Source: Thiotrichales bacterium
GTDB lineage: Bacteria; Pseudomonadota; Gammaproteobacteria; GCF-002020875
NCBI GenBank assembly: GCA_018658305.1
Contig: JABHVM010000003.1
Location: 1-38,155, forward strand
Reading direction: 5' to 3'
DNA: 38,155 bases
The notes below the pieces were generated by a model. The model was not told the origin of the DNA and did no database searches. It saw only the letters and a program-made list of their open reading frames with translations. Of this stretch, positions 2-33,366 are shown piece by piece. Made by a program: the position numbers and the translations under genes. How positions within the stretch are numbered: position 1 is the first letter of the stretch; each line of letters opens with the position of its first letter.

Positions 2-151
2 GTATACATAACAGACTACAAAATAGATGTGTTATTTAATAATGGCAGAAAAGGAATTGCAGATTTAGCACCTGAATATGTATATTTCCAAGCATTTAAA
101 AATGAAGAAAAATTAAAACCACAATTTAAAGAATGGGGCTATATATTCTAA
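2..151 (+). CDS. C-terminal part of a small protein, possibly DUF2442-like (5'-truncated by the window edge)
   Basis: Frame starting at base 2 reads VYITDYKIDVLFNNGRKGIADLAPEYVYFQAFKNEEKLKPQFKEWGYIF*. It is open from the window edge to TAA at 149-151. The pattern resembles DUF2442 proteins (..V.F.dG..G..DL..). It is absent from the ORF track because its start lies outside the window. Confidence 0.55.
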   Translation, partial: VYITDYKIDVLFNNGRKGIADLAPEYVYFQAFKNEEKLKPQFKEWGYIF

Positions 152-305
152 CGCGTGCGTTGGCAGGGCTGCGCGCCTGTCGCCCAGATTCTCACCCTGC
201 CTCCGGCACGGAGGCAATCCATTCGACGAGGACGATTTGACAGTATAATATGCAACAAGTTACAATTACACGGATCAAATGCGCCTGTCAACGCAGGCGT
301 TATGT
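147..305 (+). other. attC: Probable integron attC recombination site
   Basis: Left arm TAACGCGTGCGTTGGCAGG (149-167) is complementary to right arm CCTGTCAACGCAGGCGTTA (284-302) at 17 of 19 positions. The left end has TCTAAC (R''-like) and the right end GCGTTATGT (R'-like). The preceding ORF stop lies inside the left box and a new ORF begins 25 nt after the right box. Confidence 0.7.
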
Positions 306-326
306 TTTACATAAATAAGGAATAAA

Positions 327-2060
327 ATGTCAAAACTCAATGTAGATCAAAAAACAATATTTGACCTGTTGTCGGATAAAAAAGCCGACTTCCTTATCCC
401 AGATTATCAGCGCCCATATGCTTGGGATGAAGAGCAATGCCAAACACTTTGGGATGACCTTTTTACATTTTCATTCCCTAATAATAATTACGAGGAATTT
501 GATAAAAACGATGAGTATTTTCTTGGAACGATTGTTACGTTCAAAAATGATAAGACACAATCGGAAGTTATAGACGGACAACAGCGACTGACTACGATAA
601 TGCTTATTTTGCGTGCATTCTATGACAAGTTTGCTCATATGCAGGATACCAATTCTAAACAAACGCGTGGTCGTATTGAGAAATGCATATGGAAAACTGA
701 TGAATTTGGTAGCGCAGATAAATTAACATTAAAAATAGACTCGGAAGTTGCTACAGATAAGGATAAGTATGAATTTCTTGATTTATTGAAGACTGGCACA
801 CTGAAACTTGGAAGCAAAAGTCAATATATTAATAACTATAAATTCTTTGAGGAGAAAATTGAAGAGTTTTTACAAGGGTTTGCTAGCTACTTTCCATATT
901 TTCCAGCAAGAATTTTGGGGAATTGTATTCTCCTGCCGATAGAAGCTGAGTCGCAAGACACCGCGCTCAGGATTTTTTCAACTCTCAATGATCGTGGGCT
1001 TCCCCTAGCTGATGCAGACATATTCAAAGCGCAGTTCTATAAATATTATAGTGACAAAGATAAAAAAGATGACTTTATTTCTGAGTGGAAAACACTTGAG
1101 GAAATTACAAGTTCAGTTTTTTATTTAAATGCTGGCTCACCAATGGATGAAATTTTTGCCCGTTACATGTATTTCTTACGCGCCAAAGAAGGAAACAAAA
1201 GTACCACTACAGAGGCATTGCGCAAATTCTATGAGCGTAATAAATATCAATATCTTCATAAACCTGAGACCATTCCCAATATAAAATTACTAGCCTTATT
1301 CTGGAAAAGCATTTCAAATCAAGATAATCAGAGATTTACCAACTCTATTCTTAAGAAACTATTTGTTTTGACTTACGCACCTAATGGCATGTGGCAAAAT
1401 ATAGTTTCAGTATATTTTCTTCACAATAAATTACCTGACGGAGCTTTAGAAGAAACTGAATTCAGTTTCTTCTTAGATAGAATTACTGCCTTCATTTATG
1501 CGTATGCCATAACAAATCCGGGGGTTAATGCTTTGCGGACACCTATATATGACGAAATGATCAATATTGTAAATGGAGTAAAAGTTACATTTGAAAAATA
1601 TAAATTTAATGAAAGCCAAGCCAGATCATTCTTCGATAATTACAAATTCACAAACCAGCGCAATATAACGCGTTCTGTGATCACATGGTACGCCCACACA
1701 TTTTCCGAACAAAACCTTCTTGATTTTAATGAGATATTTCATTTGGAGCACATTTACTCCAAGAAAAGACAGGAAATGGAAGAAGGCTTAGAGAATACGA
1801 CAGCTATTGAATCACTTGGGAATAAGATTTTACTTGAAGGAAGTATTAATATCCGAGCATCTGATTATCGGTTTGAAGATAAAAAAAATATATATAGCGG
1901 AGAACAGCGGCGTGGGGAAAATAAAGAGCCTAGTAAAATCTTGGAAATAGCGGAACTCATTAGCTTTGATGAATTTGAAGAGAAGCAAATAGTTGATCGT
2001 AATAAGAAAATTTTAGATAAATTCTTTGCTTTTCTACAGAGAGAACATTTAATAGCATAA
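327..2060 (+). CDS. DUF262/DUF1524 (GmrSD-like) protein, putative modification-dependent restriction endonuclease
   Basis: 577 aa. DUF262 motifs IPDYQRPYAWDEEQ and DGQQRLTT; C-terminal DUF1524 HNH-like HLEHIYSKK and SLGNKILLEGSINIRASDYRFEDKK. AAGGAAT RBS just upstream. Confidence 0.85.
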   Translation: MSKLNVDQKTIFDLLSDKKADFLIPDYQRPYAWDEEQCQTLWDDLFTFSFPNNNYEEFDKNDEYFLGTIVTFKNDKTQSEVIDGQQRLTTIMLILRAFYDKFAHMQDTNSKQTRGRIEKCIWKTDEFGSADKLTLKIDSEVATDKDKYEFLDLLKTGTLKLGSKSQYINNYKFFEEKIEEFLQGFASYFPYFPARILGNCILLPIEAESQDTALRIFSTLNDRGLPLADADIFKAQFYKYYSDKDKKDDFISEWKTLEEITSSVFYLNAGSPMDEIFARYMYFLRAKEGNKSTTTEALRKFYERNKYQYLHKPETIPNIKLLALFWKSISNQDNQRFTNSILKKLFVLTYAPNGMWQNIVSVYFLHNKLPDGALEETEFSFFLDRITAFIYAYAITNPGVNALRTPIYDEMINIVNGVKVTFEKYKFNESQARSFFDNYKFTNQRNITRSVITWYAHTFSEQNLLDFNEIFHLEHIYSKKRQEMEEGLENTTAIESLGNKILLEGSINIRASDYRFEDKKNIYSGEQRRGENKEPSKILEIAELISFDEFEEKQIVDRNKKILDKFFAFLQREHLIA

Positions 2061-2262: not shown

Positions 2263-3348
2263 ATGGAACAACATAAAAAATCGGCTGAATTAAAACGACA
2301 GATTAGAGAGTTGGCTACTGAGTTTGGATTTTCTGGTTTTGGAGTTGCTGATTGCGATCTCACTCAACACGAAGATGCTTTCCAGAAGTGGTGTGAACAA
2401 GGATTTTATGGTGAGATGGAGTATATGGTGCGCCATGGAAGTAAACGGAGTCGTCCTGCTGAACTAATTCCAGATACGATATCTATCCTATCTTTTCGGA
2501 TGGAGTATCTTCCAAATGGCGCTGCCGATTCTTGGGAGACCATGCAAAATAGAGAGAAGGCATTCATTTCGCGCTATGCGTTAGGGCGAGACTACCACAA
2601 GATGATGCGCCAGCGGCTGGCTAAGTTAGCAAAAAAAATTGGAGAGTTAATTGGTCCATTCGGAAATAGAGTATTTGTAGATAGCGCCCCTGTACTGGAA
2701 CGAGGCATTGCGGAGCGTAGTGGAGTTGGATGGATCGGTAAACATACTAACCTTATTGAAGAGAGAAGTGGCTCTTGGTTTTTTCTCGGAGAGATATATA
2801 CTGACTTATCCATAGAGCCAGATCAAGCTGCAAGTAATCACTGCGGAAGTTGTAGTAGTTGCATTACTGCCTGCCCTACTGCTGCTATTATCTCCCCCTA
2901 TCAACTGGATGCACGGCGCTGTATCTCTTACTTGACTATAGAGTTAAAGGGATCAATTCCAGTAGAGTTTCGCAAAGCGATTGGAAACCGCATTTACGGC
3001 TGTGATGATTGTCAACTAGTGTGCCCCTGGAATAGATTCGCAGAGCCTAGCAGTGAGAGTGATTTCAAGGTGAGAAATGGGTTAGATAGTCCAGACTTAA
3101 TAGAACTTTTTGAGTGGAGTGAGGAGGAGTTTATGAAAAAACTAGAGGGCTCTCCAATAAGGCGTATAGGCCATGAACGCTGGTTGCGCAATATTTCAGT
3201 TGCATTGGGTAATGGTAGAGAAACCCCTCAAGCAGTAACTGCGCTTAAAGGGAGATCTAACCACGAATCTGCTGTAGTTAGAGAGCATATTCAATGGGCT
3301 CTAAGCCAGTATAAAGTGCGTTCGGTAGTACTCCATCTCAGCAATTGA
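2263..3348 (+). CDS. queG: Epoxyqueuosine reductase QueG
   Basis: 361 aa with two 4Fe-4S motifs ([16 protein letters not shown] and [13 protein letters not shown]) and [27 protein letters not shown]. Confidence 0.95.
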
Positions 3349-32560: not shown

Positions 32561-33366
32561 TCTACACTACCAATACTAAAGTGTGCAGTATTGTCATCCT
32601 CAATATAGTTTAGATGATCAAACAGCTCACCATTAAGTTTAATCTCAACACCAATAGCGTTCCCCAACTGAATATCAAATGGCTCTTGCCCTTTAAACTC
32701 TTTGACCATACCAGCATTCAACATACTTTTAACCATCACTAACCCATCATCATCTTGAACTTGAGTCCAAGAGGAATCTATATAGTGAATAGTTAGAGTA
32801 GACTCAGCACGCTCTTCAGCTGGCTTCTCTATAGGATTATCTATAGTATTCTCTATAGATTTATCAATTACTTCCTTAACTATCTCTTCAGGCACCTCTT
32901 CAATAGCGTCATCAAAATCTCTCTCTATTAAGTACCAAATTAGGAAACTTACACTAAGAGCTAAAACCAAGATTATCATCCAAGAGCGTATCCTCACATC
33001 TCTACCTGAATCACTATTCAACTCATTATCTAAACTCTCCCCTGCCCCACCCTCTTCACCTGTTTTTCCTCTATCTCTATCTCTATCTTTATTTTTATTT
33101 TTATCTTTATCTTTATCTTTATCAGCTACAATATTAGATAAATCCACCCCAAGATAGCGCGCATAGCTTCGCACAAATCCCTGATAGAATACCTCTTGAA
33201 AATCAGCTGGTGGTCCTTGATCCTGCTCAATGGCATGTAACATTGATATATTGATCTTTAAACGATGAGAAGGACTGTCTAAATTTTCACCCAACTCGAT
33301 CCTTTTATCGCGCAATATCTGCCCAATACTTTTACTACTGCTACCTGTAAAATCTCTCTTATCCAT
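32557..33366 (-). CDS. rodZ: RodZ-like cytoskeletal/HTH membrane protein
   Basis: N-terminal HTH ([36 protein letters not shown]), one TM ([20 protein letters not shown]), C-terminal DUF4115-like domain; pilW-rodZ-ispG order. Confidence 0.9.
33070..33123 (-). repeat. Hexanucleotide microsatellite within rodZ
   Basis: Approximately nine tatctc/tatctt/tatttt hexamers encoding [18 protein letters not shown]. Confidence 0.93.

Follow-up and report, generated by a model that had tools for sequence, protein, structure and literature searches.

An attC site with a lost R'' box and an upstream mirror arm at the left edge of a Thiotrichales contig

Integron integrases use attC sites as a folded bottom strand with R and L helices, extrahelical bases and an unpaired spacer, and integration falls 8.5x10^4-fold in mut20, a mutant of the Vibrio cholerae repeats (VCR) whose spacer is paired and which lacks extrahelical bases (PMC2727003). 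Clusters of attCs that lack an integron integrase are termed CALINs in IntegronFinder, and draft genomes are known to show arrays split at similar attCs (PMC9024848). Here, we analysed a stretch of 38,155 nucleotides (the window), which is the entire contig C40 of the Thiotrichales genome G000 (1.65 Mb, 96 contigs, 95% complete). With a probability of roughly 0.85, we read the site at its left edge as the last attC of a cassette array between tsaE and queG, with a canonical core at 215-305, no remaining R'' box and, upstream at 146-167, a mirror arm. This is known biology with an uncommon composite site.

Inverted repeat and attC core

The initial annotation, made from the sequence alone, had proposed an unusually long attC formed by two arms at 149-167 and 284-302. 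Inspection of the sequence confirmed the elements on which this proposal was built: the arms are 17/19 complementary and enclose 116 nt, the left one bears TCTAAC and the right one GCGTTATGT, the left box contains the stop codon TAA (149-151) of a partial upstream ORF, and the next ORF starts at 327, 24 nt beyond the right arm. In the 38 kb window this is the sole inverted repeat that reaches 17/19 with 20-180 nt in the loop, and 20 dinucleotide shuffles of the whole window produced one in total. The GCGTTATGT motif alone is uninformative because its reversed pattern is commoner in the genome (14 versus 9 occurrences). What the first reading had missed is that the same right arm has a second and better left arm at 222-240.

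For comparison, 229 genomes of the same class, which was assigned by a kinship table and gene content, were surveyed; 94 of them yielded integron integrases, and the regions beside 20 of these were used for attC extraction. A structure of R and L helices with two extrahelical bases fits the 37 aligned reference attCs, which include class 1 cassettes and one cyanobacterial plasmid site, and shows strong covariation (score 0.403; shuffles gave 0.124 and slid partners no more than 0.111). A home-made palindrome scanner picked up many false sites along with the known attCs; therefore, two covariance models were used, R1, which includes the R helix, and R2, which treats the R boxes as sequence only. 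Both recover untrained sites, namely one Shewanella plasmid site and further Kovacikia plasmid sites, at about 17-30 bits.

Neither model chose the 149-302 pairing. With filters off, R1 picks 215-299 (9.8 bits) instead, and the top R2 match of the window is 215-305 (15.6 bits; runner-up 10.1 bits). The E-values of 0.15-0.32 (R2, 0.15 in 38 kb) are modest because R'' is missing, and the score on its own is marginal, the alignment being more convincing. The features of the site, all on the plus strand, are the following:

146-167, plus strand: left arm of the initial annotation, a TTCTAAC box and a mirror copy of an attC right half, 17/19 to the right arm of the window
146-214, plus strand: GC-rich stretch of apparently separate origin, judged by GC content, that holds the mirror arm
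209-215, plus strand: position of the lost R'' box, reading CGGAGGC; the R1 and R2 alignments begin at model position 7, the last R'' base
215-305, plus strand: attC core (spacer, L'', loop, L', spacer, R'), 15.6 bits in R2 and 9.8 bits in R1
222-240, plus strand: L'' arm, TT[C]GAC[G]AGG[A]CGATTTGA, with 224, 228 and 232 extrahelical in the R2 alignment
275-291, plus strand: L' arm, TCAAATGCGCCTGTCAA, pairing with 222-240 and leaving G281 unpaired (sequence and pairing check)
299-305, plus strand: R' box GTTATGT, the expected recombination box; the R2 alignment reaches the model end

Read back, the right arm gives TT-GAC-AGG-CG-C-ATTTGA, and all 16 of 16 positions pair with 222-240. The L''/L' helix therefore carries its extrahelical bases on the L'' side, and on the bottom strand these bulges are G, C and T at four-nt steps. 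Neither strand of the window holds a second match to the L'' pattern of 222-240 (the runner-up has 12/16); as the search pattern was written after the alignment had been seen, its uniqueness is support and no independent test. GTTATGT fits the R' consensus GTTRRRY at 6/7 positions, and an R'' box of the form RYYYAAC that would pair with R' is missing at 209-215. The stretch 215-305 is a damaged attC, with its R'' box lost and R' intact.

The expectation that folding of the bottom strand would reveal extrahelical bases thus held for the 222-240 arm, which has three, and failed for the 149-302 pairing, where the arms align gap-free and the left arm has none. Nor is the attC unusually long: the attC proper spans about 95 nt, with the R'' box lost and the mirror arm lying upstream. 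A single working attC of 160 nt, with 146-167 as its R''-L'' arm and the inner 116 nt as a large variable terminal structure, would have TAAC/GTTA boxes at both ends, a stop codon in the left box and the strongest predicted fold of the stretch (the free-energy minimum of 146-305 is this outer stem, and that of 205-305 is a local hairpin, both of which count against the 215-305 reading). We consider it very unlikely, given that it lacks extrahelical bases, is passed over by the covariance models in the presence of a canonical L'' arm at 222-240, and falls outside the range of 49 reference attCs used for arm comparison: its spacer is complementary at 3/4 positions (references, 0-2) and its ungapped arm identity is 17/19 (references, 8-13/19).

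Compared with these references, the left arm itself behaves as an attC right arm read backwards. The base after its TAAC is G, which was seen in 3/49 reference left arms and 45/49 right arms, and by eye the arm agrees at 18/19 positions with the attC right half that closes contig C36. It also lies in a stretch (146-214, 69 nt) with a GC content of 0.68, compared with 0.27 at 1-145 and 0.43 at 215-305. Because of these right-arm features, the likeness to C36 and the GC-rich surroundings, we take it to be either a mirror copy or a remnant of some other site, and not the regular partner of the right arm.

A cassette array between tsaE and queG

The genes flanking the site are, on the plus strand:

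2-151, plus strand: 3' end of a truncated ORF with a weak likeness to DUF2442, presumed to be a cassette gene (Pfam, sequence)
327-2060, plus strand: GmrSD-type protein (GmrSD_N and GmrSD_C), the last cassette gene ahead of queG (Pfam)
2263-3348, plus strand: queG, a core gene and right boundary of the insertion (Pfam; congener identity)

The DUF2442 score of the cut ORF (15.7 bits) is under the cut-off of 23.9; the GmrSD-type protein scores 139.9 bits with PF03235 and 32.7 bits with PF07510, and queG is 68-72% identical in four congeners. The stop codon of the GmrSD-type gene lies within GCATAAC (2055-2061), and R1 and R2 over the window recognised no attC behind this gene. An open frame without a start, CopG-type antitoxin-like (...KDKRINIRIASRDLTMIQKHAADKHRT...), occupies 2061-2262, between the GmrSD gene and queG; judged by this resemblance, a toxin-antitoxin cassette has probably left this relic.

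In the congeners G001, G003 and G005, tsaE and queG are direct divergent neighbours. In G000, tsaE lies on C20 and queG on the window contig, with cassettes separating them. At its start, C20 carries an attC at 135-237 (19.0 bits with R1, 24.6 bits with R2) and a 218-aa minus-strand gene, followed by an HD-GYP-like gene and tsaE; read away from tsaE, another gene begins beyond the attC. This attC shares 71% identity with an attC-like site from a plasmid of Shewanella baltica, and the array ends on C20 and in the window share their reading direction, from tsaE to queG. Gene order thus places an inserted array between tsaE and queG, with only its two ends retained in the assembly; C20 and the window are linked by synteny and not by a sequenced junction. 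The HD-GYP-like gene (C20 1376-2572), between the array and tsaE, is unmatched in the congener loci and may be part of the insertion.

Sister attCs, which had been named as a check of the first reading, are present elsewhere in the genome. Besides C20, contig C43 terminates with an attC (32623-32696, 24.7 bits), and C36 terminates in an attC right half that is 93% identical to window 236-302 and is followed by a different gene and then purD. Several attCs of the same orientation between non-core genes are thus found on C20, C43, C36 and the window, each on its own contig. The placement of the site in a cassette array at a contig edge therefore stands, and the 149-302 pairing as the attC itself does not. 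These ends point to at least two arrays, or one plus a rearrangement, split at similar attCs. In no relative were purD and prlC, the genes bounding the other array ends, found next to each other within 1.5 kb. A second attC-like stretch on C36 (2334-2398) reached 4 bits only and was discarded. On C43 as well as C36, a 21-nt repeat, GTCAGGTCTTTACTTTTGCAC, adjoins the array end (L132 4367; L015 minus strand, ~2540-2560); an inverted GCACTCTGACCC comes after it, and this may be a REP-like element. Synteny together with attCs at contig edges can in this way reveal arrays with one attC per contig, for which a standard search that requires two attCs would report nothing.

Integron integrases in G000 and its congeners

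As the initial annotation had remarked for the window, an integrase is absent: no IntI scores above the TIGR02249 cut-off in the G000 assembly, which is 95% complete, and a complete integron, with IntI beside attI and an array, was not found in it. A recombinase on C13 was rejected as IntI (TIGR02249 93.7 bits versus a cut-off of 265, with the match broken between 180 and 215); at 162-2161 of this 2.5 kb contig, a tyrosine recombinase gene is directly followed by an IS91-type transposase gene. A profile search of five congeners found complete IntI in G003 and G005 and intI fragments in G001, G002 and G004. Since these relatives carry intI, an assembly gap is a possible reason for the missing G000 integrase.

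All five congener contigs with intI (G003 C13, G005 C1, G002 C20, G004 C380 and G001 C17) end in the gene or within about 0.6 kb of it. Its neighbours differ, being a thioredoxin-like gene, priA (twice), a pyruvate kinase gene and an Mla-type ABC operon, a pattern suggestive of a moving integron; priA stands beside intI in G005 and G001 and is contig-internal in G000. The G005 integrase frame (L046 160-1554) encodes 464 aa, with an N-terminus about 140 aa longer than usual, and integrase frames of similar length occur in several other genomes. The intI contig of G005 and its cassette contig C42 share a 55-base end, and the G005 intI is therefore joined to an array.

Integrases throughout the genus, together with the attC core and the sister attCs at other contig ends, make it highly implausible that the repeat has no relation to integrons and arose by chance or as a miniature transposable element. 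Its nearly perfect 19-nt ends would suit such an origin, as would the Rfam search of the site, which matched no family; against it, no second copy of the full element was found in the genome. A plasmid search with the site gave no match. Exact arm patterns had 4 matches in viral and genome collections, judged to be chance from their surroundings, and a weak match to the site on G003 C97 sits within a long coding frame.

Activity, origin and comparison with known systems

On the bottom strand, L'' and L' of 215-305 would pair with three extrahelical bases and an intact R' box, GTTATGT, and the mirror arm at 146-167 could pair with the same right arm, restoring a TAAC/GTTA box pair. The canonical fold would have no R helix, and the outer fold would have a paired spacer and no extrahelical bases. 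By analogy with mut20, which has both of the latter defects, we infer that both folds are poor integrase substrates and that the site is nearly dead, in parallel to the published attC mutants. As it is expected to recombine poorly, the GmrSD cassette is probably in effect fixed beside queG. A two-state attC, in which one right arm is shared by a canonical arm without R'' and a mirror arm with R'' but no strand-selecting bases, seems to us distinctly improbable; if true, it would lock the end cassette or let both strands recombine at a low rate, and would match in nature the attC mutants made in the laboratory, in which the spacer is paired and extrahelical bases are lacking.

The composite could have arisen when two neighbouring attCs fused and their inner R boxes were lost, or by template switching in a hairpin. 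On contig C42 of G005 (1009-1299, ~56-234) there is a compound attC, two attCs back to back, in which both inner R boxes are mutated (GCGATAAGC, GCCTATC) and the outer boxes are intact; its second half recurs ahead of another cassette. This compound attC makes a fused pair a plausible origin here too, with template switching as the alternative. An assembly error at a repeated attC would instead make 146-214, and with it the mirror arm, unreal, the true site being a plain one with a normal R''. It would account for the missing R'', for the sharp GC change at 146 and 214 and for the fact that G000 contigs break at these attCs, but the upstream stop codon lies in the TTCTAAC box, as ordinary cassettes have it, and G005 has compound sites with lost inner R boxes; we therefore regard such an error as unlikely, and the composite site at the end of the array as the preferred reading.

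The site resembles VCR in the three extrahelical bases of its L'' arm, spaced 4 nt apart, in the GTTA of the R' box and in its position between cassette-like genes. On the bottom strand its bases are G, C and T, versus G16, T20 and T24 in VCR2/1 (PMC2727003), so that the middle base differs; unlike VCR, it has lost the R'' box, and an extra upstream mirror arm gives a competing fold. With CALINs it shares attCs and cassette genes in an assembly lacking an integrase. In contrast to them, the G000 array is spread over contigs with one attC each, so the default two-attC rule would report nothing, and the missing integrase may be an assembly loss, as relatives have one. In fused cassettes with a truncated attC, such as GES-1/aacA4 (PMC4670013), the boundary site has likewise lost part of the attC and is expected to be inactive, but the site described here keeps the outer R boxes and has a mirror arm, and its neighbour is GmrSD-like and no resistance gene. 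Finally, as among the defence genes of chromosomal integrons, a restriction-type gene is in cassette position; the GmrSD-type protein has 577 aa, whereas for type IV systems on integrons a reduced size is reported as the usual case (PMC12409362). By its domains, this cassette gene is a possible anti-phage gene, and the damaged terminal site could explain why it, as the end cassette, has stayed beside a core gene.
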